Shown piece after piece: positions 102 through 14,506 of a stretch of DNA of 64,000 nt; the stretch's first letter is position 1, and every line of letters starts with the position of its first letter. Source of the DNA: Sphaerochaeta pleomorpha str. Grapes. Its GTDB lineage: Bacteria > Spirochaetota > Spirochaetia > Sphaerochaetales > Sphaerochaetaceae. Where the stretch lies: assembly GCF_000236685.1 (NCBI RefSeq), contig NC_016633.1, positions 806,001-870,000 on the forward strand. The letters run 5' to 3'. The notes beneath the pieces are model-generated. The model did no database searches. It worked only from the letters and a program-made list of their open reading frames with translations, and had not been told where the DNA came from. A program made the translations under genes and the position numbers.

Positions 102-2093
102 TTATTTGTTTACAGAAAACGGGGAACGAAGGCCCACTGGCTCATACGCGACACCTTTCCCGGTAAAATACTTGCTAAAGAACTCATAATAGTTAAGCCT
201 CAAAGCCTGGATGCCTGAACTCAACCCTTCCAATGCGATAACGAGAAGGTTCCCGAAAATAAATATCAGGATACCCCAGAATCCACCGGCATTCCCTGCC
301 AGTTCCTTGAATGCTGTCATGAGGCTGACATGGGCAATCCCTAATCCGGCTACCCGCATGAAAGAGAGGGTATTCGAGAGATAGCCTATGAAAATCTCAA
401 GGACATTGATAAACCATTCCATAAAAGCATCCATGGTCACTGCAACGATCGAATGTTTTTTGCCACCCTTCTTGACCGAGATACGGTATTCGATAAAACC
501 CGGAAACAGTAACAGTACTATCGGAATGACTATGGCAGGCGTAAGCCAGGAAGCCGAAGGGAACTGCTTGTACCCTGTCGCTACATACCCAAACCCCATG
601 TACAGGCCAACAGCGAAAAGCCAGCCGCCGACAAGACCGTTCTTATCAAGGGTAAGTTTAAGCCAGGCCTTTTTTCTGAAAAGGTTTACCCAGTTGATTA
701 GCAATCCAAGGTAGATGATGACAATTCCGAACTTGACGGTAATCCCAAGGATGGAATAGACATCCTTTATAACCCCACCTGTCGCCTCTCCATTGACCAC
801 ACGGTCGAAATTGAACCAGACGGCAGGAAACAGGGAAAACCCAAAATAGGAACCGAAAAGCACGCCACCGACCATGGAGGCTGAACCTAGGTAGAGCAGA
901 AGGTTGCAGAGATTCCTGCTGATCATACCATCTGCTTTCAAAGGATTCTTCTTATAATCAAAACGTCCGACCAAACCGATGAGAAGCAATACCAAACCTT
1001 GCCCCACATCAGCGAACATCAAGGCAAACATGACCAAATAGGCTACCATGACGAAAATAGTGGGGTTAACCGAACCGTATTCAGGTGTGTTGTAATTATC
1101 TACCATTTTCTGGAAGGGACTGAAGGCTTTCGGGGTATGTATGGAAACTGGGATTTCTTCCCTCGGCATTTCCTCGGCACCTGTCCACTCAATCACACAC
1201 TGCCCTTCGCTGGCCTGGGTTATGGCCTCAGAGACAGAATCACACTGGTCTACAGGTACCCAACCTGAAAAAAGGGTTGTATTTCTTGTATAGGAAAAAT
1301 AAGACCTGATCTGGTTGCAAAGCTCATTGAGCCGAAGGTTGCACCACATCGAATCCAACTGCATTTGCTGCTTCTTGATTATCTCGTCTACCTCAAGCTC
1401 AGTCTGTTTGAGATGGGCAGCTGCCTCTAGGTATTCTTTGTCAATCCGGGAGGAAATCTCTATAAAGGCATGTTTCTGGAGCTCAGCATTGCTGGTCTCC
1501 GTCCATTCGAATTTGTCAAGCAGGGGGGATACCTGGGCACTGTCCCTGCGCAAGGCCAGAGCTATGTAGGAATTGCCTTCCTCTGTCTTATGGAGAAGGC
1601 CTCCTAGGGAAATCAGCTTCTCACTGAGGTCCTCTGGACTGCCATGCCCGACAACACCAACCCTCAAATCAAGATATTCGAGTTTTTCATCCCCAATATA
1701 CCTTTTGAGTTCCTGCAAACCCAATAACTGTTGGTTAAAGTTCTTCTGCTTGTCCTTGAGCGTTGCCAATTGCTTTCCCAAATTGTCAAGCATGTTCCTA
1801 TAGGATTCCAGATCAGGCTTTTCCAGGTTCTTGACATCAAGCATGTCACTGGAAGGAAGAAGGCAATGCCCTTGACGCAACACAGCCTCTACCCGGTGTC
1901 GCATATCCTCGAGGGCGGCCTTGCTTATCGAGATCGGTCTCGAACTGAGCTTCTCCATTTGCCGGGGATCGATTTTCTTGATACTTACAAAATCCATCAC
2001 CCCTAACTCAAGCAAAGCCTTGATAACTGTATCGCTCATCTGCTCCAACACAACTGCGGTAAGCAGTTTCATTGGCCTGGTAAACAGGTTCAT
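102..2093 (-). CDS. ntpI: V-type ATP synthase subunit I (a-subunit homologue)
   Basis: This is the stator membrane subunit that forms the ion half-channels against the K ring. The 663 residues match the family length. Residues 1 to about 330 are soluble with coiled-coil stretches (roughly 90-125 and 230-270), the arm that contacts the peripheral stalks. The rest holds about seven membrane helices, including the family motif MFADVGQG and a helix with LSFMRVAGLGIAH, whose Arg near residue 579 matches the essential channel arginine. A second membrane Arg lies near residue 632. The start overlaps the stop of subunit C by four bases, indicating translational coupling. Whether the pump moves protons or sodium cannot be read from this subunit. 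Confidence 0.95.
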   Translation of the reverse strand: MNLFTRPMKLLTAVVLEQMSDTVIKALLELGVMDFVSIKKIDPRQMEKLSSRPISISKAALEDMRHRVEAVLRQGHCLLPSSDMLDVKNLEKPDLESYRNMLDNLGKQLATLKDKQKNFNQQLLGLQELKRYIGDEKLEYLDLRVGVVGHGSPEDLSEKLISLGGLLHKTEEGNSYIALALRRDSAQVSPLLDKFEWTETSNAELQKHAFIEISSRIDKEYLEAAAHLKQTELEVDEIIKKQQMQLDSMWCNLRLNELCNQIRSYFSYTRNTTLFSGWVPVDQCDSVSEAITQASEGQCVIEWTGAEEMPREEIPVSIHTPKAFSPFQKMVDNYNTPEYGSVNPTIFVMVAYLVMFALMFADVGQGLVLLLIGLVGRFDYKKNPLKADGMISRNLCNLLLYLGSASMVGGVLFGSYFGFSLFPAVWFNFDRVVNGEATGGVIKDVYSILGITVKFGIVIIYLGLLINWVNLFRKKAWLKLTLDKNGLVGGWLFAVGLYMGFGYVATGYKQFPSASWLTPAIVIPIVLLLFPGFIEYRISVKKGGKKHSIVAVTMDAFMEWFINVLEIFIGYLSNTLSFMRVAGLGIAHVSLMTAFKELAGNAGGFWGILIFIFGNLLVIALEGLSSGIQALRLNYYEFFSKYFTGKGVAYEPVGLRSPFSVNK

Positions 2094-3193
2094 GCCAGCA
2101 CCCCCCTGATGTATTCCTCGCTATAACCGTAATATTTCCCATTCAAGATTGCCTTGATCATCGAATCCTCACTTGTATAGAGAAAAAAGTAGGCAAGGGC
2201 AATCCCGATGGTAAAAGGGTCACCAGCCAAGATATAATGATATTCCTTGCTACGCTTCTGCTGAAGGTAATGTTCAATCTTGAGCGTTGCCTTGGCAAGC
2301 AACTCATCACTGTGGGCACCTTCTTTGCTCTCGGTTGACACCTTCTGAATTGATTCCACAAGATCAGGATAATATTGCTGAAGCAAGACTACAGGGTCAC
2401 GATCACCCGGGGACATCGCCAGAAAGGTTTTCACATTGTTGCTTCTATAGATTCGCCCCCAAGGAAATAAGAGGCTCTGCAGATGCTCCTTGTCCAATTT
2501 ATGATACCAACCGAAGCGAATCAGCATGAGGATGTTATTCAGGTCGATTTCAACCTTAAAGACTTCCTGAACGATTTTTCTATCGACTGGGGACAGCTGC
2601 TCTGATTTTTCAAGAATCTGTCTGTACCATTCGCAATCGAGGGCTGATTCCAGGTAAAAGACACCCTGTTGCTGGATATCCTCCTGGGAAAAATTCCGGA
2701 GAACCGCTGCATAGGGACTTTTCCCTAATGAAGAAACTACCCCATCCCAGGAAACTGCATTGATCAGACCTGTCCAGTTAATATCGGAGACAATTTTTTC
2801 CTTGAACAGGTATTCGCTACGGTACCGTATCGAATGCAGACGGATTACGCTGCTGAACCAAAGGCGAATTGCGTTTTTCAGGTTCTCTACTTCTATTTTG
2901 CCCAGAAGGGTACGTACAAAATCAGAGGTGGAACCCCTTAAAAGCTTTGCAATGCCATGGTACATTTCGATTTCTTTTTTCAAAAGTACCAGTTCCATTT
3001 GCTGGAGGTCACCAGTCTCGTCATACGCCTTTGCAACATCCTTATAAGAACCATCACGCAAAGAATGCACAGCTTCAACTACTGAATTGGCTTTCATCAA
3101 GTCATCGATAAGATGGGATTCACGCATCAGACCGATACGTGCACGAAGCTTTGCATTGATAAACTCATATTGGGAGGTTGAGCTATAAGCCAT
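2090..3193 (-). CDS. ntpC: V-type ATP synthase subunit C (V0D-like, central connector)
   Basis: A 367-residue soluble protein of the V-ATPase subunit C / V0D1 family, which caps the membrane rotor and joins it to the central shaft. The family signs are the all-helical make-up, a starting tract with FINAKLRARIG, and a central tract rich in Glu and Asn with NILMLIRFGWY. It sits six bases downstream of the stalk gene and overlaps subunit I by four bases. The E, A, B and D subunits are not in the window and probably lie beyond the left edge, after K. Confidence 0.9.
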   Translation of the reverse strand: MAYSSTSQYEFINAKLRARIGLMRESHLIDDLMKANSVVEAVHSLRDGSYKDVAKAYDETGDLQQMELVLLKKEIEMYHGIAKLLRGSTSDFVRTLLGKIEVENLKNAIRLWFSSVIRLHSIRYRSEYLFKEKIVSDINWTGLINAVSWDGVVSSLGKSPYAAVLRNFSQEDIQQQGVFYLESALDCEWYRQILEKSEQLSPVDRKIVQEVFKVEIDLNNILMLIRFGWYHKLDKEHLQSLLFPWGRIYRSNNVKTFLAMSPGDRDPVVLLQQYYPDLVESIQKVSTESKEGAHSDELLAKATLKIEHYLQQKRSKEYHYILAGDPFTIGIALAYFFLYTSEDSMIKAILNGKYYGYSEEYIRGVLA

Positions 3194-3198
3194 GGTTA

Positions 3199-3519
3199 TT
3201 ATGCTTCTCCAAACAGATTCGTCTTGGAAACCAAAGAGACGATTCTGTCGGCAATATCATCGAGACGTTTATCATTCAACTCAATGGAGCTATCAAGATT
3301 TGACTCCGTCTCTTCCAAAAGCCTTGCAGCTTCTTCTTCTGCCTTGGAAAGTTCGATCTTATGCAGGTCGCGTACAGTTTTCAAAGAGTCTTTAACCAGA
3401 GCATTGGCTTTCGACTGGGCCTCGATAAGCATTTCCCTGCTTATGGTGTTTGCATCATTGATGATTTTCTGGGCCCGATCCTCTACGGTGAGGACTTCGT
3501 TGATAATTTCGCTACGCAT
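3199..3519 (-). CDS. V-type ATPase peripheral-stalk subunit (G/H/F-like coiled coil)
   Basis: A 106-residue, strongly charged, almost fully helical protein with a heptad-like pattern over most of its length and no membrane segment. It is the first gene of the visible V-ATPase operon. Small coiled-coil proteins in this place (NtpF of Enterococcus, AtpH of archaea) pair with subunit E to form the peripheral stalk. An AGGGAGC ribosome binding site precedes the ATG, and a TTGACA promoter lies about 60 bases upstream. Low-complexity coiled coils give weak homology, so the assignment leans on position. Confidence 0.75.
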   Translation of the reverse strand: MRSEIINEVLTVEDRAQKIINDANTISREMLIEAQSKANALVKDSLKTVRDLHKIELSKAEEEAARLLEETESNLDSSIELNDKRLDDIADRIVSLVSKTNLFGEA

Positions 3520-3627: not shown

Positions 3628-6600
3628 TCAAGGAGCCACGTTAAGGACTGGTTTCACCACAGCAGCCTCTTCCTCGACGGGTTGGCTTTCCTCAAAAGAC
3701 GGGAATACTTCCGACCAGAACGTATCATCATCAAGCTGTCTTTGTGTATTCAATGTTATGGAAGCATCATATCCAGTTGCCAGAGAGGTCCCGAAAACAT
3801 CCTCGGTAGCATCTACCTGCTTCCCGGTTTGATCACGTACTATCAGCCGTTGTTGAATCTGAGGATCGGAAACCCAGAAGTCTTCCAGCTCAAAAACCCT
3901 CTTCTTTTCAACTTTGCCTTCCTCAGGTTCAGGAATACTGAAACGGACGGCATACCACAGTCCATCAACATCCAAGTCAAACAGGTAGTTTCCTGGATTA
4001 ACGTCAGAGAGAATATAACGGCCATCAATGTCGGTAAAGAGATATAGTTCTTCATCAGGTGTTATCACCTCTATTCCATCCGGTCCTATAGTTACATCAT
4101 AGACAGGAGAGGAATACTGGACATACGGGGTATGGTCGGCCTGGTATAAGATTCCACTGACCGTGTAGGTTGCTGCAATATCAATGGTAGCTACAAAAGC
4201 TTGTCTGCTTCTTGGATTTATTTCATATACCGAAGATGTTCCCGCGCCAAACATAGAAGAGCTGGTACCAAAGACAACGATGCTGTTTCGGGTATTGGTA
4301 GTGATGTTGTTATAGAGGGCACTTCCCAATGGTCTCTTCAGATACACGGGAGACGAGTCCAGACTCCGTGCTATCGAAATCTCTGCACTGCGTAATTCAC
4401 CCACAGGTTTGACCAGCAGAAATGCCTCATTCACCGTTTTCCCTAAGCCAAAAGCACCATCGGCATAGGCAACATAGGTGTTTGCAGAGATCATAGTCGA
4501 CATTTTATTATAGGATTCATAGGCCTGTTGCTTGAAGGTAAAGGAAGCATACTCTCCGGAATGTGTCCAGGTAGCCTGCAAAGACTGGTCTTCTGTAGTC
4601 TTGAAGTCCACTCCACTGAGAGAAAGGGACACACTGTCAGTATCCGAAGGACGATAGGAAAGTCCAAAGGAAGATATTATTGACAAAGGATTAAAAGAAG
4701 CGGAAGAGGCTGCACTTGAACTGAGCTTATCATTAAATGAGTAAGAACCAGAAATCTGGGCGGTTACGATGGGGTTCCAAACATCCAAAGCTGAGGCAGA
4801 AGCAGTGACTGACCCACTTATGGAGAAATTGTCAAAGGGAGAAAAACCTGACGAGAACGTCAACGACCAAGAGGGGGCAGTAAAGGCTGAATCCTTTGTC
4901 AGGGAACCGGTCACAGAATAATTGAAGCCTTTTGCAAAGCTCCCTGAATAGGAAATATTGGAAGTCATATAACGTGTTGCAGCATCCGTTGAGGTCAAAA
5001 GTACAGAGGACCTTGAAAAACTGAATCCCAGGCTCAGCGATCCAAAATTGCTATCATAGGGAACACTGAAACGGTGGCTTATCGAAGCAGAGAGATCTGG
5101 TTCTTTATTGCTTACATCGAGTCCAAGGGTCATCTGCAGCTGGGTCGTGCCAATTGTCGAGGCAAAGACACCACTGACAGTTCCTCTAAAAATACCGGGA
5201 GTTATGGAAATATCAGAGGAAAGCGTGAATGCATTAGTCATCCCTGTCTGCTGCCAATAGGTTGCCGTCCAATTTCCAAGGAAATAGGAAAGATACTTGT
5301 CATTAAGCCAAGGTAGGCTGATAGTTCCCATTTTAGTACTTTCGACGACCCGTGGAACACTGAAACTGAACCCGTAGACACTATCACCTTTCCCCAAAAG
5401 CCGATAGTCATAACCAAGATCGAAATATTGGACTGTCGTATCATTTGGCCTGGCATCAGGGGTAATGGTAACCTTTGCCATATTGACGCCTTGGGTAAAC
5501 ACAAAGTCCTTAAGCCGATAGGTACCTGCACTGAAATCCCGGTTATAGATTTCTTTGCCGTTTATCTCAATCGTAACATTCGAGTCTTCAACCAATACAA
5601 TGCTGTACTCAAATTGGTTTCCCTTTGCAGCATCCGTTCCATAGGAATAATCCTTATCGAAAACAACGCCTACACTGGTCACCGTTCCATAGTCATTGGA
5701 GGAAGAATTGATTTCGCTTAGGTTCGAACCTACATTTCCGAAAGTCAGGCGTTGGCTGGTTTCAACAAAATCATAGAACCCCTGCCAAGACCCAAAACCG
5801 AATAAGGGGCTGTTGGAAGACAAAGAATAGGAAACATCAAAGCCAAGATTCCAGAAAGCCAGCTTATGGGAGACCGAAAGACTTAAAAGCTTGCTATCCA
5901 AAGCAGAGAAATCAGAGGGATATTCGAAATTGGAGTAGAAGCCAAGGGATGTTACGACAGAAAATTTTGCAGGGTCCAGAACTATTGCACCACTCAAGGA
6001 ATAAGCATCCCTGCGGTTCAACGTACCTCCATTTATGCTAATCGTCTTGACTGGCATCTCTTCGACATCAAAAGTCATGTCAACGGAAAAATCGGTGCTG
6101 TCAAAGACTGTCTCGACTCCCCTGTTGTTCAGCTCCTCGATCGAAATAAAGGGAAGCGCATCAGAAAAAAGAAGTTCATAGGTTTTGTCAGTTATGTAAT
6201 CACCAATAAACAGTGACAAATCAGACGTATTCAGACTTTGGACACCATCATTAAATTCAGCCTCAATATCCCCGACATATTCTTTATTTACAAATAAGCC
6301 CAAGAAATACAGGCCATTGTCAAATGCTATGGTCGAATCCTCACCGCTGACAAAGAAGTCTGCAAAGGGGTCTTCTTCCTCAGGGGCTGCTTCCAACATC
6401 ACAGGGGCAACGAATGAGTCATAATCATCGAGGGTATACACCGAAGGCTCAAAAAAGGTAGGGGGAGGAGGAACGAGCAACGTGGTATGGACACTACCGA
6501 AAACAGGCAGACCAGGTATCTTAATCGGGTCCACAATCTGTATGCTCTGCTCAGGTGGTTCCTCAACCTCTGGTATAATTTCTTTTACGGGTGGTTGTTC

Positions 6601-6924
6601 AGGCTGGAAAAGATGGTTGGGCTCAGGTAAAGCTCCGACAGTTGCAACCTCCTCAGGCAAAACCTTGCTTTCAACAGAGGCGGTAACTTGCTGAACCTCA
6701 TCAATCGTAGAGGCTATCGTAGGCTGATAGTTGACTGGAGGCTCAATTTCTACTGTATATACAGGGATGATTTGAGGACCCGTGGCAATAGGCTGGGCTT
6801 CTGGTTCAGACTCGATTACCGGTCTCACAGTAAAGCAGGTAATAAAAAAAGAGGACAAAAAAAGGACCGTTAGCACAGTAGAAACAAGTAAAAAAACACT
6901 TTGTGCGGTCCTTTTAATTTTCAT
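3628..6924 (-). CDS. Outer-membrane usher-like protein with proline-rich N-terminal linker
   Basis: A 1098-residue exported protein. The ATG at 6924 is preferred over a TTG 21 bases upstream because AAGGAA lies at the right distance. Residues 7-30 form a signal or anchor helix. Residues 35-190 are Pro/Glu-rich and disordered-looking. Residues 195-300 resemble an usher N-terminal domain, with a FNDG turn and a paragraph on a Leu-rich, Gly-Val-containing repeat before Asp/Phe strands. Around 440-490 a segment with NVTIEINGKEIYNRDFSAG followed by a GVNMAKVTITPDA stretch mirrors the usher module that reads V-x-V-x-x-N-G ... pG-x-y. The next 450 residues alternate polar and aromatic positions like beta-barrel strands, and the C-terminus has a DIDGRYILSDVNPGNY turn like usher C-domains. 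It follows a chaperone-like gene by 43 bases. Similarity is by pattern only; a general beta-barrel secretin-like protein is the alternative. Confidence 0.6.
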   Translation of the reverse strand: MKIKRTAQSVFLLVSTVLTVLFLSSFFITCFTVRPVIESEPEAQPIATGPQIIPVYTVEIEPPVNYQPTIASTIDEVQQVTASVESKVLPEEVATVGALPEPNHLFQPEQPPVKEIIPEVEEPPEQSIQIVDPIKIPGLPVFGSVHTTLLVPPPPTFFEPSVYTLDDYDSFVAPVMLEAAPEEEDPFADFFVSGEDSTIAFDNGLYFLGLFVNKEYVGDIEAEFNDGVQSLNTSDLSLFIGDYITDKTYELLFSDALPFISIEELNNRGVETVFDSTDFSVDMTFDVEEMPVKTISINGGTLNRRDAYSLSGAIVLDPAKFSVVTSLGFYSNFEYPSDFSALDSKLLSLSVSHKLAFWNLGFDVSYSLSSNSPLFGFGSWQGFYDFVETSQRLTFGNVGSNLSEINSSSNDYGTVTSVGVVFDKDYSYGTDAAKGNQFEYSIVLVEDSNVTIEINGKEIYNRDFSAGTYRLKDFVFTQGVNMAKVTITPDARPNDTTVQYFDLGYDYRLLGKGDSVYGFSFSVPRVVESTKMGTISLPWLNDKYLSYFLGNWTATYWQQTGMTNAFTLSSDISITPGIFRGTVSGVFASTIGTTQLQMTLGLDVSNKEPDLSASISHRFSVPYDSNFGSLSLGFSFSRSSVLLTSTDAATRYMTSNISYSGSFAKGFNYSVTGSLTKDSAFTAPSWSLTFSSGFSPFDNFSISGSVTASASALDVWNPIVTAQISGSYSFNDKLSSSAASSASFNPLSIISSFGLSYRPSDTDSVSLSLSGVDFKTTEDQSLQATWTHSGEYASFTFKQQAYESYNKMSTMISANTYVAYADGAFGLGKTVNEAFLLVKPVGELRSAEISIARSLDSSPVYLKRPLGSALYNNITTNTRNSIVVFGTSSSMFGAGTSSVYEINPRSRQAFVATIDIAATYTVSGILYQADHTPYVQYSSPVYDVTIGPDGIEVITPDEELYLFTDIDGRYILSDVNPGNYLFDLDVDGLWYAVRFSIPEPEEGKVEKKRVFELEDFWVSDPQIQQRLIVRDQTGKQVDATEDVFGTSLATGYDASITLNTQRQLDDDTFWSEVFPSFEESQPVEEEAAVVKPVLNVAP

Positions 6925-6967
6925 GCAACAACTATTCCTTTTCAAGAAATATCAAATATATTCCCCG

Positions 6968-7735
6968 TTAATTGCTAGTATATGTAAGTTTGGACTTATA
7001 GGTAACCCCAGGTTCCCGGGAAAGTACTGCCGGCCAAGGAACTTGTTTCGTTACTGTCTTTTTTGCGAGCACATTCATGCCATCGAATCCCGAAAGCGCT
7101 TCTGTCCCTTCCAGGGTAACGGAATTACCTTTACTATCGGTTATCTCCAGGATGCTGGCAACAAGCAACTGGTGTACGTTGCCTAGATTGGAAACAGTAA
7201 TGGCCATTGTCTCTGCACCATCATCTGCCACAGTAGGAACGATAGACCTTACCATTATATTCTCAATTGCTTTTGAAGGAGAAACATAGAGACTGGTTGT
7301 GTATATGTACAAAAAGTTGAACATGCCCTTTTCAGTACTGTCCTTTCCTTTTGAGTAGGGAATCTGCTCAGCCTTCAATCTGAACGCCAATTCATTGGTT
7401 ACTGTTTTAGGGCCACGATATTGCACCCTGACAATCTGGCTGCTCTGGGGCTTAACGATTACCTTGTTGGGAACGATAGAAAAATACGCCGTTGCCGGAG
7501 TATTGATTTCAGCACCAAGCTCATCCTGATCCCTAAACATTGCTGAGATTTCTATTGCAATAGAATCATCGCCATCGTTGAGTATAGTATAGGTCTTGGT
7601 GCTTTCAGCCCCTGTAGGTCCAAAGACTTGTTCCAAAGGAGAGAACTGATAAGCAAAAAGATTACCTACCGTCAACATAAAAGTTAATGACATCAGTACA
7701 AAAATTCGTTGCCTACTTGTTTTTCTAACGTTCAT
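6968..7735 (-). CDS. Periplasmic PapD-like (fimbrial-type) chaperone
   Basis: A 255-residue protein with a signal peptide (cleavage near residue 28) and two Ig-like beta domains. The core pattern YFSIVPNKVIVKPQSSQIV followed by a RVQYRG strand and FRLKAEQIP matches the chaperone signature in which a Pro-containing edge strand precedes L-x-i-P. In classical members an Arg in the first strand and a Lys near residue 112 anchor the subunit C-terminus; neither is obvious here, so this is a divergent member. The promoter upstream and the usher-like gene 43 bases downstream form a two-gene unit. No pilin-like gene is adjacent. Confidence 0.7.
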   Translation of the reverse strand: MNVRKTSRQRIFVLMSLTFMLTVGNLFAYQFSPLEQVFGPTGAESTKTYTILNDGDDSIAIEISAMFRDQDELGAEINTPATAYFSIVPNKVIVKPQSSQIVRVQYRGPKTVTNELAFRLKAEQIPYSKGKDSTEKGMFNFLYIYTTSLYVSPSKAIENIMVRSIVPTVADDGAETMAITVSNLGNVHQLLVASILEITDSKGNSVTLEGTEALSGFDGMNVLAKKTVTKQVPWPAVLSREPGVTYKSKLTYTSN

Positions 7736-7806: not shown

Positions 7807-7835
7807 ATGTCTCACCCAAAAAAAAATATGTCTCA
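7807..7835 (-). repeat. Direct repeat TGAGACAT, two copies 21 bases apart
   Basis: ATGTCTCA reads at 7807-7814 and again at 7828-7835 on the plus strand (TGAGACAT on the minus strand). Start-to-start spacing is 21 bases, two helical turns, and the nearer copy is 9 bases upstream of the -35 box of the chaperone promoter. The geometry fits a transcription activator site. The farther copy overlaps the stop codon of the TetR-like gene. Confidence 0.4.
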
Positions 7836-8402
7836 ATGCGACATTGCCATCCTTTTTAATGCTGAATCGAAGGTTCCACTGAGTATTGGATGAAAGCGAG
7901 ATACAATATCTTCGATATCACCGGCCATCCCATCCTGAACCCAATCCAAGGTTATCCCCACAAAGGCATGCTTATAAAAATTTGCCAGCAACCTGCAATT
8001 CTCATCAGAAACCCCTAAGGCATCGCCTTTGACTTTTATGCTCTGATAGAGCAGTTTATACGCTTCACGACAAAGATATCTATCAAGCCTCTCTCGCCCA
8101 AGGCTATGATATACATTAATGGTTACCTCGCGGTGGTCTTTGAGACTCTTACAGATGGCTATCATAGTATTCTGTCCATCATCATCAATATCAATCCGGG
8201 GATATTTACGGGCAAACTCTTCCCCATCATGGGCAAACATCCAATCGAGCAAATCATATATATCCTTGAAATGATAATAAAAAGTCTGTCGGTTTACACC
8301 ACACCGCGCTACCACTTCCTTTACTGTAATTTTATCAAGGGTCCTTTCACTCATTAACTGTCTAAGTGATTGGGATAACGCCAATTTTGTCATCTGTGCC
8401 AT
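7833..8402 (-). CDS. TetR/AcrR-family transcriptional regulator (DhaS-like C-terminal type)
   Basis: A 189-residue regulator. Residues 8-55 form the TetR helix-turn-helix: the recognition part reads ITVKEVVARCGVNRQTFYYHF, split by the usual turn, and YYHFKD is the classical end of that domain. The C-terminal part, with an F-x-x-x-G-I-x-L-x-W pattern, resembles the TetR_C_8-type domain of dihydroxyacetone-kinase regulators such as DhaS. It lies directly upstream of and codirectional with the chaperone/usher-like operon, separated by 97 bases with its own promoter. Two palindromes just before its start suggest autoregulation. The ligand is unknown. Confidence 0.85.
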   Translation of the reverse strand: MAQMTKLALSQSLRQLMSERTLDKITVKEVVARCGVNRQTFYYHFKDIYDLLDWMFAHDGEEFARKYPRIDIDDDGQNTMIAICKSLKDHREVTINVYHSLGRERLDRYLCREAYKLLYQSIKVKGDALGVSDENCRLLANFYKHAFVGITLDWVQDGMAGDIEDIVSRFHPILSGTFDSALKRMAMSH

Positions 8403-10552: not shown

Positions 10553-11251
10553 ATGGAAAAACAATCTTTTGCAGTAAGGCTGCAAGGTGCAATATTCTAT
10601 AAGTCATTGGTCCTGATGAGAAAAACCTGGAAGGTAGAAATTGAGGGACAAGAGATTCTTGACCGGCTCTATGCCGAGAACAAGCATTGCCTCCTCTGTT
10701 TCTGGCATGGCAAATACATTCCCATCTTCCCTCTTTTAAAAGGATATGATGCCTGTGTCATTACAAACCAATCGGAAAGAGGGAATGTGATTACCGAAAT
10801 CTGTAGGAAATTTGGTTTTTACAATGCACAGATTCCAGATGAGCCAAATCGTAATTCGTATAACCTTATGAGAGAGGCAATGTCTGCAAAGAACATGTGC
10901 GGAACAGCATCTGACGGACCACTCGGACCTGCCTGCCAGGTAAAAAGCGGAGTAGTGAGAATCGCATCAGCCCTCGGCTATTCACTTTTACCTGTTTCTG
11001 TCGGTATACGAGGCAAGATAGTCCTCAAAGGAAGGTGGGATTTAAGGGAAATACCCTTACCTTTTGCAAAAGTCTGTATGATCTTTGGGGAACCGATAGA
11101 CCTGCCACCCAACCTCAGGGGAGGTCAAGTCAAAGTCTGGGAAGAACGTGCCACCAAGGAAATCTCGGCACTCAGCATTCAGGCGGAAACAAAAGTTGAA
11201 AAAAACAAAAGGAGGAAGGTCAATGCCACCATCAAAGGACAAGTTTCCTGA
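10553..11251 (+). CDS. DUF374-type lysophospholipid acyltransferase-like protein
   Basis: 232 residues of the LPLAT superfamily, DUF374 branch. FWHGKY (His52) stands where the family keeps its catalytic His, and TASDGPLGP (Asp121) is the hallmark DGP-GP box. The central S-G-V-x-x-I-A tract fits as well. Such proteins are thought to acylate lipid A precursors or glycolipids. The C-terminus is highly basic. The next gene, a flippase-like membrane protein, overlaps its end by 29 bases, followed by a glycosyltransferase, so a glycolipid or envelope-lipid pathway is likely. There is no clear ribosome binding site. Confidence 0.75.
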   Translation: MEKQSFAVRLQGAIFYKSLVLMRKTWKVEIEGQEILDRLYAENKHCLLCFWHGKYIPIFPLLKGYDACVITNQSERGNVITEICRKFGFYNAQIPDEPNRNSYNLMREAMSAKNMCGTASDGPLGPACQVKSGVVRIASALGYSLLPVSVGIRGKIVLKGRWDLREIPLPFAKVCMIFGEPIDLPPNLRGGQVKVWEERATKEISALSIQAETKVEKNKRRKVNATIKGQVS

Positions 11252-12284
11252 CACAAAAGGTAAAATCTTTGGATATGTCGGCCTTATTCTCCTATTCTTT
11301 GCGCTATCGCTTGGTACGATGTATTTTCTTCATCGCCATTTTTCACAGGGAAAATTGCACATTCCTTCCCAATTGTTCTCATTACCTGTAATTACAACCG
11401 TTGTCTTTTTATTGCTCGGTTATTATCTCGCTGACGCTTTGCGTCTCTACAGTGTGATAAAGGCAATGGGAAATACTCTTTCATTCCTTTATATCATAAA
11501 GCTCGTCTTTATCAACATCTTCATTTCGAACGTTACCCCCCTTGCTACAGGAGGCGGTTTTATCCAAGTGTATTTCATGGCCAAAAAGGGTATATCACTA
11601 GGGGAAGCAACGGCAGCTACCTCGATCCGTACCATCCTCTCTGCTATGATTCTGTTCACCCTCACGCCCCTCATTATCTGGCTCGAACCAAACGAATTCA
11701 AAGCGTTTATGCATAGGCATGTGCTTGTTGCAATCTCAGCAGTTTCCTGCGCGGTCGTACTCTTCCTTCTTCTCATAACCTTCTGGCCAAACATGATAAA
11801 AAAGGGAGTCAAGGCAATCCTGTATTTGTTGAAAAGAATGAGGTTGCTCTCTGTTGCCCATATGGAAACAATGTATGAGAAAATAGAAAAAGAAATCGAC
11901 AGCTTCTCCCAGGGATTCGCTCATTTCTTCAAAAAAGGAGGAATCTGGGCTGCCAGTTCGGTTTTATGGACCGTAATTTTCCTTCTGTTCCTTTTTTCCT
12001 TCTCGATTGTACTCATTTCTGCCCTGGGTTATAAAATCCCCATGCTTACCGTTCTGGCCGTACAGGTAGTGGTAACATTTTTCATGTACTTCGCCCCTAC
12101 CCCTGGAGCTACAGGAATCGAAGAAGGAGGATATGGCTTGCTCTTTTCCCAGCTTGTCCGAAGCCAAGACATAATGGCCTTGACGATCTCTTGGCGTTTT
12201 TTGACCATCTATATTGGCGTAATCGTAGGGATATTCATATTTGCCTATGAGTTTTTCAGGAAAAGGAAGGTCCTGGGCAAATGA
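11223..12284 (+). CDS. LPG_synthase_TM / YbhN-family flippase-like membrane protein
   Basis: 353 residues with seven or eight membrane helices. The ATG at 11223 is chosen because GGAGGAAGG stands just before it; an open frame extends 25 codons further up without support. Family motifs are NVTPLATGGGF, where a Pro-Gly-rich bend follows a helix, and the late APTPGATGIEEGGY box, typical of the transmembrane part of lysyl-phosphatidylglycerol synthase and its stand-alone relatives. These are believed to flip lipids. There is no soluble aminoacyl-transfer domain. It overlaps its neighbours on both sides. Confidence 0.8.
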   Translation: MPPSKDKFPDTKGKIFGYVGLILLFFALSLGTMYFLHRHFSQGKLHIPSQLFSLPVITTVVFLLLGYYLADALRLYSVIKAMGNTLSFLYIIKLVFINIFISNVTPLATGGGFIQVYFMAKKGISLGEATAATSIRTILSAMILFTLTPLIIWLEPNEFKAFMHRHVLVAISAVSCAVVLFLLLITFWPNMIKKGVKAILYLLKRMRLLSVAHMETMYEKIEKEIDSFSQGFAHFFKKGGIWAASSVLWTVIFLLFLFSFSIVLISALGYKIPMLTVLAVQVVVTFFMYFAPTPGATGIEEGGYGLLFSQLVRSQDIMALTISWRFLTIYIGVIVGIFIFAYEFFRKRKVLGK

Positions 12285-14506
12285 GTAAACGACAAAAACT
12301 GCACATATATTTTATCCTGGTAACCATTTTCCTCTCAATTTTGATAGGGTATCGAATTTATCTTTCCATTTATGAAAAGGACTACCAGTCACTGAACGCA
12401 GTGAATATCGAAACCATCGAGACAAAGCTCATAGGTCAGACAACCTTTTCCTTTGCTGTAGTGGGAAATATTGACAATTCCATGAGAATCTTTAGTGACC
12501 GCATCGTTCCTTTGATGCAGGATGAGAACGTAGATTTCCTGATATCGGTCGGGAATGCAGTATTCGATGGGGCAGAAGGAAAATATAGATTACTCCACCG
12601 CGGCCTGACCAAGCTGGACATTCCCTATATTTTGGTCCCTGGGAACAATGAGGTAGCTGACTTTGGATCAAATAATTTCTACCAGCATTTCGGTCCCTAT
12701 TTTTATTCCTACCATCTTGATAACGCGTACTTCATTTTTCTGGATTCAACAGGGATAACCTCTTGGAAATGGCAGCTGCATTGGCTGAACCAAGAATTGG
12801 AAACGGCAAAAAACTACCCTTACCGGTTTGTATTCCTTGGACATTCTTTGCTCCCGCAGGAAAAAGTAGCCAGTGAGAATTCCTCAAAATATACAGTAGA
12901 CGCCAAAACGAGCAAGACATTGCAGCAGCTCTTTTCCCAATATGAGGTAACCTCGGTATTCTCTACCGGCTACCACACAAACAGCCAGCAATCCGTCGGT
13001 GGCGTTCGTTACGTTGTATCGAGTGGAGGTGGTGGTTTATTACTGGATAACGAACAACCCTACCAGTTTGTCAAAGTCATGGTAAACCCGCAAGGTTTCT
13101 CATGCACAAACATTACCGCTCCCAATCGGTTCAGTCCCATAAGGGAAAAAGTAGAAACCCTCAAACTCTATCTGCACTCACTTTTTTACATGAGTATTTT
13201 CAACATCCTGGTGATCATCGGGATTTTCACCCTTTTTTCCCTGCTGTTCTATTCGAAGGTTCTCAAGCAACAACACCTTTATCGGGATTTCAATATTGAT
13301 GAGGAAGCATCATTCGGTACCCCCTTACGCATTGCCATGTTTACCAACAACTACCTCCCCTTCATCGGAGGAGTACCCCTTTCCATCGACAGACTGCACA
13401 AAGGCCTGCTTGCAAGGGGTAACACTGTGTTGATCTTCGCACCCAGCTACCTGCAGAACTGGGACGACCCCAGCGATGGTTCCGTGTACAGGTGCCCAGT
13501 CCTTTTCTATACAAAAAGAGGAGAATTCCCAGCAGTCAATATTTTCAACAGGGAGATAGGCAAGGTCTTTAGGAAATTCAAGGCAGATATCATCCATGTA
13601 CATCATCCGTTTATGCTTGGATGGACTGCCCTCTTGTATGCAAAAAGAGCGAAATTACCGGTGGTCATGACCTACCACACCCGACTTGAGCGCTATACCC
13701 AATATCTTTTCGGGCCAGGAATGATGGTTAAGAATTTTTTGATACACCTGATGATAAAACATTTTGCCAACCGGTGTGATGCAATCATAGCCCCCTCCTC
13801 CTCCACCGAAGAATATCTGAGGAATCTAGGAGTCAGTGCAATCATCGAAACCATCCCGACTGGGATCAATATCGAGGCCTACGGGCAATGGACAGCTGAG
13901 CAGATCGAACAAACAAGAGCAGCGTATGTACGTCCAGGCGAAAACCTTCTTATCAGTGTTTCGAGAATTGCGGAAGAGAAAAACCTTGATTTCCTGGTAG
14001 TTGCCCTTGAGAAACTCAAAGCAACGTCCTCAAAGAAATTTACCTGCATTTTGATCGGTGATGGACCAGAAAGAAAACGCCTTGAAGCAAAAGTCAAGGC
14101 AATGGGGATGCAAGACACCATTCTGTTTCTGGGAAAACTTGCCCCTTCTGAAGTTGTCAGATGCTATCTGGCCGCAGATCTGTTTGTTTTTGCCTCGACC
14201 TCGGAAACCCAAGGGATGGTTTTACTCGAGGCAATGGCCGGAGGCTGTCCCGTTGTAGCTATTCGCTCCAGTGGAGTCTATGATGTTGTGCATGACGGGG
14301 TAAACGGATTCAAAGTCCCGGAAAGTACGAATATATGGGCGGAAACCGTAAAAAAAATCCTCGAGGATGCAGAACTCCTTTCGGAAATGTCAGGTAATAG
14401 CAGGGAATTTGCAAAGCAATATTCGGTTGAAAGTATCACCGAAAGGGTTTTGGCGCTGTACAGGAGGGTAATTTTGCTCAATGCTTCGAAACGAAGCGAA
14501 TCTTGA
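12281..14506 (+). CDS. Fusion of degenerate metallophosphoesterase and GT4 glycosyltransferase
   Basis: 741 residues. An N-terminal helix (8-30) is followed by a calcineurin-like fold (55-275), a second helix (about 303-325) and a GT4 glycosyltransferase (349-735). The phosphoesterase motifs are altered: GNIDN in place of G-D-x-H, GNAVFDG in place of GDxxxxG, PGNNE in place of GNHD, and STGYHT in place of G-H-x-H. Only LGHS is intact, so that part is probably not catalytic. The glycosyltransferase looks active: FIGGVP loop, HVHHPF, TYHTRLERY, IGDGPE and the E-x7-E pair Glu642/Glu650. Relatives with the HHPF and YHT motifs include diacylglycerol glucosyltransferases. The start overlaps the flippase-like gene by four bases. 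The likely role is synthesis of a membrane glycolipid. Confidence 0.8.
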   Translation: MSKRQKLHIYFILVTIFLSILIGYRIYLSIYEKDYQSLNAVNIETIETKLIGQTTFSFAVVGNIDNSMRIFSDRIVPLMQDENVDFLISVGNAVFDGAEGKYRLLHRGLTKLDIPYILVPGNNEVADFGSNNFYQHFGPYFYSYHLDNAYFIFLDSTGITSWKWQLHWLNQELETAKNYPYRFVFLGHSLLPQEKVASENSSKYTVDAKTSKTLQQLFSQYEVTSVFSTGYHTNSQQSVGGVRYVVSSGGGGLLLDNEQPYQFVKVMVNPQGFSCTNITAPNRFSPIREKVETLKLYLHSLFYMSIFNILVIIGIFTLFSLLFYSKVLKQQHLYRDFNIDEEASFGTPLRIAMFTNNYLPFIGGVPLSIDRLHKGLLARGNTVLIFAPSYLQNWDDPSDGSVYRCPVLFYTKRGEFPAVNIFNREIGKVFRKFKADIIHVHHPFMLGWTALLYAKRAKLPVVMTYHTRLERYTQYLFGPGMMVKNFLIHLMIKHFANRCDAIIAPSSSTEEYLRNLGVSAIIETIPTGINIEAYGQWTAEQIEQTRAAYVRPGENLLISVSRIAEEKNLDFLVVALEKLKATSSKKFTCILIGDGPERKRLEAKVKAMGMQDTILFLGKLAPSEVVRCYLAADLFVFASTSETQGMVLLEAMAGGCPVVAIRSSGVYDVVHDGVNGFKVPESTNIWAETVKKILEDAELLSEMSGNSREFAKQYSVESITERVLALYRRVILLNASKRSES

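Follow-up and report, generated by a model that had tools for sequence, protein, structure and literature searches.

An archaic-type chaperone-usher pair in Sphaerochaeta pleomorpha with a probable N-terminal membrane tether on its usher and candidate subunits encoded at a distance

Sphaerochaeta are round, non-spiral spirochaetes. The window analysed here is a stretch of 64,000 nucleotides from Sphaerochaeta pleomorpha str. Grapes (contig NC_016633.1, positions 806,001 to 870,000). Its minus strand carries a gene for a periplasmic chaperone, followed by a gene for an outer-membrane usher (Table 1). A first-pass annotation, made from the sequence alone, had described the two as a chaperone/usher-like pair in a probable spirochaete, with no pilin beside it. 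Both open reading frames are present as described, with exactly 43 bases between the chaperone stop and the usher ATG, and the nearest named relatives are indeed Sphaerochaeta. An alternative TTG start at position 6945 would lengthen the usher to 1105 residues. The pair has no pilin gene directly next to it; its neighbours are a TetR-family regulator and subunits G, C, and I of a V-type ATPase. That the pair is a real chaperone-usher system is nearly certain. As a whole, it probably represents an archaic (sigma, Csu/SCPU) system, with subunits encoded at a distance and an usher that is tethered at its N-terminus. Sequences and structural models support the fold, the homology, the conservation, the helix, and the linker.

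Table 1. Features of the chaperone-usher locus and its immediate neighbours (window positions).
Feature	Position	Strand	Remarks
V-type ATPase subunits G-like, C, I	102..3519	-	immediately downstream; adjacency conserved, no membership in the system claimed
Outer-membrane usher with predicted N-terminal membrane helix and linker	3628..6924	-	1098 aa; evidence from family PF00577 matches, hhalign, and AlphaFold2
Usher C-terminal domain region	3871..4422	-	residues 835-1018; FimD aligned up to model residue 1018
Usher beta-barrel	4462..5964	-	residues 321-821; 24 strands
Usher plug domain inside barrel	5416..5607	-	residues 440-503; GTYRLKDFVFTQGVN aligned with GRYSVQDFMIKSGVN of an archaic usher (L049)
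Usher N-terminal domain	6037..6318	-	residues 203-296; pLDDT mostly 82-89; aligned with archaic usher N-terminal domain
Disordered Pro/Glu/Val-rich linker of usher	6328..6831	-	residues 32-199; pLDDT mostly 25-45; 18% Pro, 17% Asp+Glu
Predicted inner-membrane anchor helix of usher	6832..6921	-	residues 2-31; helix in model; 19-residue hydropathy 2.51
Periplasmic PapD-like chaperone	6968..7735	-	255 aa; signal peptide 1-28; two Ig domains; archaic (CsuC-like) type
TetR-family regulator (DhaS-like)	7833..8402	-	PF14278 E 1e-20, PF00440 E 3.8e-9; directly upstream in genus

The chaperone has the signal peptide and PapD-like features that the first-pass annotation had recognised. It matches PF00345 (PapD_N) with an E-value of 1.3e-7 (32.1 bits against a Pfam cut-off of 23), and its AlphaFold2 model (pLDDT 84) has CsuC (6fqa/5d6h) as its top Foldseek matches. 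VIA-align also places CsuC first (5d6h_A, Z 13.8), with classical FimC within one Z unit behind, and the model matches PapD structures as well. Relatives were collected within the family Sphaerochaetaceae (named contigs: Sphaerochaeta, Pleomorphochaeta, and Spirochaetales). Across 22 aligned family chaperones, P89 and R119 are invariant. They are 30 residues apart, the same spacing as between Pro59 and Arg89 of CsuC, and R119 is equated with Arg89 from an EcpB alignment and this Pro-to-Arg spacing. The second domain of CsuC carries a Tyr196/Arg174 carboxylate anchor. At this position, the Sphaerochaeta chaperone has no clear Tyr or Arg, in particular lacking the CsuC tyrosine, as far as an alignment that is weak in this region shows. 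The arginine corresponding to CsuC Arg89 is a mark of archaic/alternative (non-classical) chaperones (PMC4654587). Because CsuC leads the model matches and the Pro/Arg signature occurs at the CsuC spacing, the chaperone is placed in the archaic, CsuC-like clade, and an archaic type of system is very likely.

The identity of the usher is carried by its family and its fold. A profile of the family ushers aligns with archaic ushers at a probability of 100% (hhalign, E 5e-57, 743 columns), the comparison set being ushers of two other spirochaetes, from operons with SCPU proteins, and annotated ushers on cyanobacterial, Vibrio, and Novosphingobium plasmids. PF00577 (Usher) is matched by three of the 23 family members (best E 6.3e-8). 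Searching PDB sequences with the usher, or with a profile of it, returned nothing relevant. With the AlphaFold2 model, the first 18 Foldseek matches are all FimD/PapC (E 7e-32 downwards), and VIA-align gives a Z of 22.2 over 629 residues. The model contains an N-terminal domain, a barrel, a plug, and C-terminal domains; by our own reading of the DSSP string, six barrel strands precede the plug and eighteen follow it. A model lacking such a barrel or plug, or closest to another barrel family, had been named beforehand as grounds for abandoning the usher assignment. Those grounds fall away because the model, with a 24-strand barrel and a plug, matches FimD/PapC first. Of the earlier description ‘reduced or divergent’, only the second half is supported, since all usher domains are kept and the protein is longer than FimD. 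The profile comparisons that had been suggested succeed directly for the chaperone, but for the usher only through its relatives.

In three genomes, the usher gene lies in two open reading frames (L031 1089-4403 in G006, L043 7454-10773 in G019, and L170 6587-9710 in G084). The breaks in G006 (an in-frame stop) and G019 (a frame change) fall at nearly the same place, around residue 340 and near the first barrel strand. Such split frames may be pseudogenes, sequencing errors, or a two-chain usher.

The unusual part of the usher, absent from the first-pass annotation, is its N-terminal membrane helix and linker. All 23 aligned family ushers begin with a short basic stretch, followed by a helix of about 20 hydrophobic residues. 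After the helix come 103 to 199 variable residues, mostly rich in Pro and Glu/Asp, before the N-terminal domain is reached. Across the genus, identity is 57% in the helix region and 30% in the linker. Archaic ushers of other bacteria (L049, L050) start with an ordinary signal peptide. Since the N-terminal helix and the long linker are found in all family ushers examined, we infer that the helix is not cleaved: it is fairly probable that the usher stays tethered to the inner membrane, with a linker of periplasm length as in TonB.

The main rival is that the system is the same and the helix is an ordinary cleaved signal peptide, so that the mature usher would keep a long periplasmic Pro/Glu-rich tail and no tether. 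Signal peptides, too, start with basic residues that lead into a hydrophobic core, and every characterised usher known so far loses its signal by cleavage on secretion. Small-residue sites of the type recognised by signal peptidase (SPase), near the end of the helix in 14 of the 23 ushers, also count in favour of cleavage and against a tether. However, candidate sites occur in 16 of 22 chaperones, and the count does not separate cleaved from uncleaved N-termini; cleavage therefore stays the chief alternative. Against it, the usher helix exceeds the signals of the chaperones and candidate subunits in both length and hydrophobicity (mean 19-mer hydropathy 2.78 versus 2.18 and 2.19), and it is better conserved than the chaperone signal peptide (35% identity). 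Furthermore, hydropathy indicates two to five N-terminal membrane segments in the ushers of a closely related subclade, whose usher genes are linked to those of candidate subunits, and these segments cannot be explained by a signal peptide. On balance, we regard cleavage as unlikely.

The first-pass annotation had suggested that the subunits of the system might lie elsewhere, and a candidate locus was found in the same genome. The final strand of archaic subunits follows the form GxYxDTxTVT. Searched for as a DNA pattern, this C-terminal motif has 13 matches in the genome, as against 7 in a reversed-pattern control, and only a tandem at 758.6-762.1 kb, 49-51 kb from the chaperone-usher pair, encodes proteins that have a signal peptide and end in the motif. 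The tandem encodes three predicted secreted proteins of approximately 355 residues, two of which match the pattern (GDYSDTITVT) while the third ends in GDYNATITV; taken alone, the three have no Pfam match. One candidate of approximately 355 residues is located at L101 9776-10849. The other pattern matches include chance ones, to judge by the control, and one of them lies in a ribosomal-protein region. A looser pattern gave 138 matches against 104 in its control, part of which were inspected, and further single-domain subunits may exist in the genome.

Of the 26 genomes in the window's genus, 24 encode relatives of this ~355-residue family, often in tandem, with copy numbers from one to seven (a profile finds up to eight); by profile, the family is present in 33 of the 119 Sphaerochaetaceae genomes. 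The distance from the pair to the cluster, measured in eight genomes, ranges from 37 to 51 kb, and each time the cluster is downstream, on the V-ATPase side; this spacing could partly reflect shared gene order within one genus. The family profile aligns with archaic tip and pilin proteins at about 90% over the C-terminal 65 columns, and a control comparison reached 53%, mostly in the signal-peptide region. In six other family genomes (L045, L160-L163, L166), a related usher is followed by several predicted secreted proteins with similar C-termini. Because of the tandem with its C-terminal motif, the conserved spacing, the profile matches, and these usher-adjacent proteins, location elsewhere is, with moderate confidence, the most likely answer to where the subunits lie. 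From the sequences, we infer that the ~355-residue proteins are secreted and use this usher, and consider it reasonably likely that they are its clients. Their size, corresponding to two domains, suggests that they are probably tip-adhesin-like subunits rather than rod subunits.

Three observations stand against these proteins as clients. The family is detected in only seven of the 22 genera of Sphaerochaetaceae, compared with 16 for the usher; the SCPU family PF05229 is matched by only three of 25 aligned members, below the Pfam cut-off (best E 0.0017); and one genome (G015, 80% complete) has clients and no detected usher. The first two, together with the lack of linkage between clients and usher in the window's lineage, would favour a system that exports other proteins, the ~355-residue family then consisting of unrelated surface proteins whose C-terminal strand is similar. 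This is rather doubtful given the conserved spacing in eight genomes, a C-terminal motif typical of archaic subunits, and the six genomes that keep similar proteins beside the usher. Other searches for subunits gave little. No SCPU match above the cut-off was found in the S. pleomorpha genome, a single match of E 0.2 lying in an RND efflux pump and being due to chance, and a search with a 218-residue protein beside the second usher of genome G035 returned only chance-level matches. In five genomes (G001, G003, G010, G016, and G018), several members of the client clusters have stops or are fragments, and copy numbers range from one to eight, as if these arrays turn over quickly.

Two further alternatives concern the usher itself. 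A lipid anchor, attached to the Cys at which the hydrophobic stretch ends (FITC-F in the usher analysed here), is suggested by the presence of such a Cys in many family members, but is very improbable, as other members lack it (L059, L069, L071, L075, L076, L077, L078, L080, and L045) and the preceding residues (T, Q, I, V) are not those expected of a lipobox. The usher assignment is weakened by the window protein itself, which has no Pfam or NCBIfam match and a model with a mean pLDDT of 73 and a pTM of 0.53; still, that it belongs to a different class of barrels (LptD, TonB receptor, or porin) and is paired by accident with a PapD-like protein is hardly credible when relatives match PF00577 and LptD, the next family after FimD/PapC in Foldseek, reaches only E 1e-6 and a TM score of 0.17.

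In the mechanism proposed here, secreted Ig-like subunits would be capped in the periplasm by the chaperone, which would donate a strand to them. The usher, with its N-terminal domain, plugged barrel, and C-terminal domains, would then take the subunits over and export them to the surface by donor-strand exchange. Its clients would be tandem-encoded secreted proteins of approximately 355-400 residues, encoded elsewhere in the genome (three here, up to eight in relatives). Most likely, the usher would be a single chain, with its anchor in the inner membrane, a linker of 100-200 residues, and its barrel in the outer membrane. The tether might serve as a positioning device, holding the usher where chaperone-subunit complexes appear.

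Ushers are viewed as stand-alone outer-membrane barrels that are powered only by the folding energy of their subunits (for archaic pili, see PMC9452303). A membrane helix and a periplasm-length linker throughout a family would break this picture. It would also raise a question of biogenesis, namely how a protein whose N-terminus remains in the inner membrane can have its 24-strand barrel inserted into the outer membrane. In a literature search outside of which subscription journals lay, this combination was described for no other usher. An N-terminal addition to an usher is known from the P-usher CupB3 of Pseudomonas (PMC3031594); the addition is periplasmic in both cases, but is a POTRA domain in CupB3 and a membrane helix with a disordered linker in Sphaerochaeta. 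In the energy transducers TonB and TolA, an inner-membrane helix is likewise followed by a Pro/Glu/Val-rich linker across the periplasm. Unlike these, the Sphaerochaeta usher has no TonB C-terminal domain (no Pfam match to TonB_C) and ends in its own outer-membrane barrel, its C-terminal part being that of an usher.

A bolder and rather improbable extension is that a single chain spans both membranes with a TonB-like linker, and that its anchor couples secretion to the inner membrane, through force, the proton-motive force, or a fixed export site. If so, the chaperone-usher pathway of Sphaerochaetaceae would no longer be purely outer-membrane and energy-free. Coupling of the usher to ExbB/ExbD/TonB is speculation. 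The genome has one ExbB gene with ExbD and TonB genes, beside a TonB-receptor-like gene; this ExbB-ExbD-ExbD-TonB-like operon lies near 1.4926 Mb (L221 1342-3213), and the linker of its TonB is an exact VEQPVA repeat of about eleven copies. Elsewhere in the same genome, a thioredoxin-like protein (L101 2603-3292) combines an N-terminal membrane helix with a linker rich in Pro/Ala/Glu, and such spacers therefore serve other envelope proteins of this organism.

The system can be compared with better known ones. With Acinetobacter Csu (CsuC/CsuD/CsuA-B/CsuE), it shares the chaperone fold and signature Arg, the usher domains, the GxYxDTxTVT C-terminus of the candidate subunits, and, for the related subclade, usher-adjacent genes that encode similar secreted proteins. 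In contrast to Csu, the membrane helix and long linker take the place of a plain signal peptide, the candidate subunits exceed those of Csu in size, occur in multiple copies, and are encoded at a great distance, and the operon is joined to V-ATPase genes. With FimC/FimD and PapD/PapC, it shares the overall usher and chaperone folds, but identity is approximately 13%, the Sphaerochaeta chaperone lacks the classical A1-strand Arg, and no rod pilin was detected. The pair is a candidate surface adhesin system for non-spiral spirochaetes, whether free-living or gut-associated. A literature search found no chaperone-usher or surface adhesin system described for Sphaerochaeta or other non-spiral spirochaetes, and no paper on chaperone-usher systems of Spirochaetota, which is weak evidence, with subscription journals outside the search; a 2025 preprint on non-spiral spirochaetes makes no mention of ushers, pili, or fimbriae.

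The pair is conserved across Sphaerochaetaceae: the usher profile detects it in 91 of 119 genomes and 16 of 22 genera, with a few weak matches. Applied to 296 sampled genomes of the phylum, this profile has matches in only four that do not belong to the family. Two of these (G381 and G414) have canonical operons with an SCPU-like or pilin-like gene, a chaperone, an usher, and a tip gene, and two other spirochaetes (G044 and G057) have operons that are alike. These four encode a homologous chaperone and usher within the same phylum, but differ in their pilin-chaperone-usher-tip order and in ushers without the tether architecture (the N-terminal starts of G381 and G414 being uncertain). The statement that chaperone-usher systems are described mainly in Proteobacteria needs qualifying, as there are reports of archaic ones in Cyanobacteria and Deinococcus-Thermus (PMC4654587), and canonical operons occur in other spirochaete families. 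In a phylogenetic tree, Sphaerochaetaceae ushers form one clade (support 100/100), apart from the archaic ushers of other bacteria; the inner branching order of the outgroups is unsure because of their long branches. In another spirochaete family, one genome (G038) carries an orphan archaic-pilin-like secreted protein of 187 residues (L174 7701-8264), with no chaperone or usher in the 16 kb examined.

Downstream of the pair, V-ATPase subunit genes follow on the same strand, within a few to approximately 100 bases, in 46 of 57 usher records from many genera (records with enough downstream sequence; some genomes are counted twice). Exceptions include L048/L080 (one genome, near AsnA and FGGY-kinase genes), G127 (L169), and two outgroups, and the linkage is absent in all six members of the client-linked subclade. 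We claim no functional link to the V-ATPase, only conserved adjacency. The TetR-family gene possibly regulates the chaperone-usher operon; a promoter and terminator scan found sites no more frequently than in shuffled sequences. Further along the window, at 10553-14506, lie three consecutive plus-strand genes, possibly for envelope lipid synthesis: the first has a weak DUF374 match, the second encodes a multi-membrane protein, and the third is an apparent fusion of phosphoesterase-like and glycosyltransferase-like parts.

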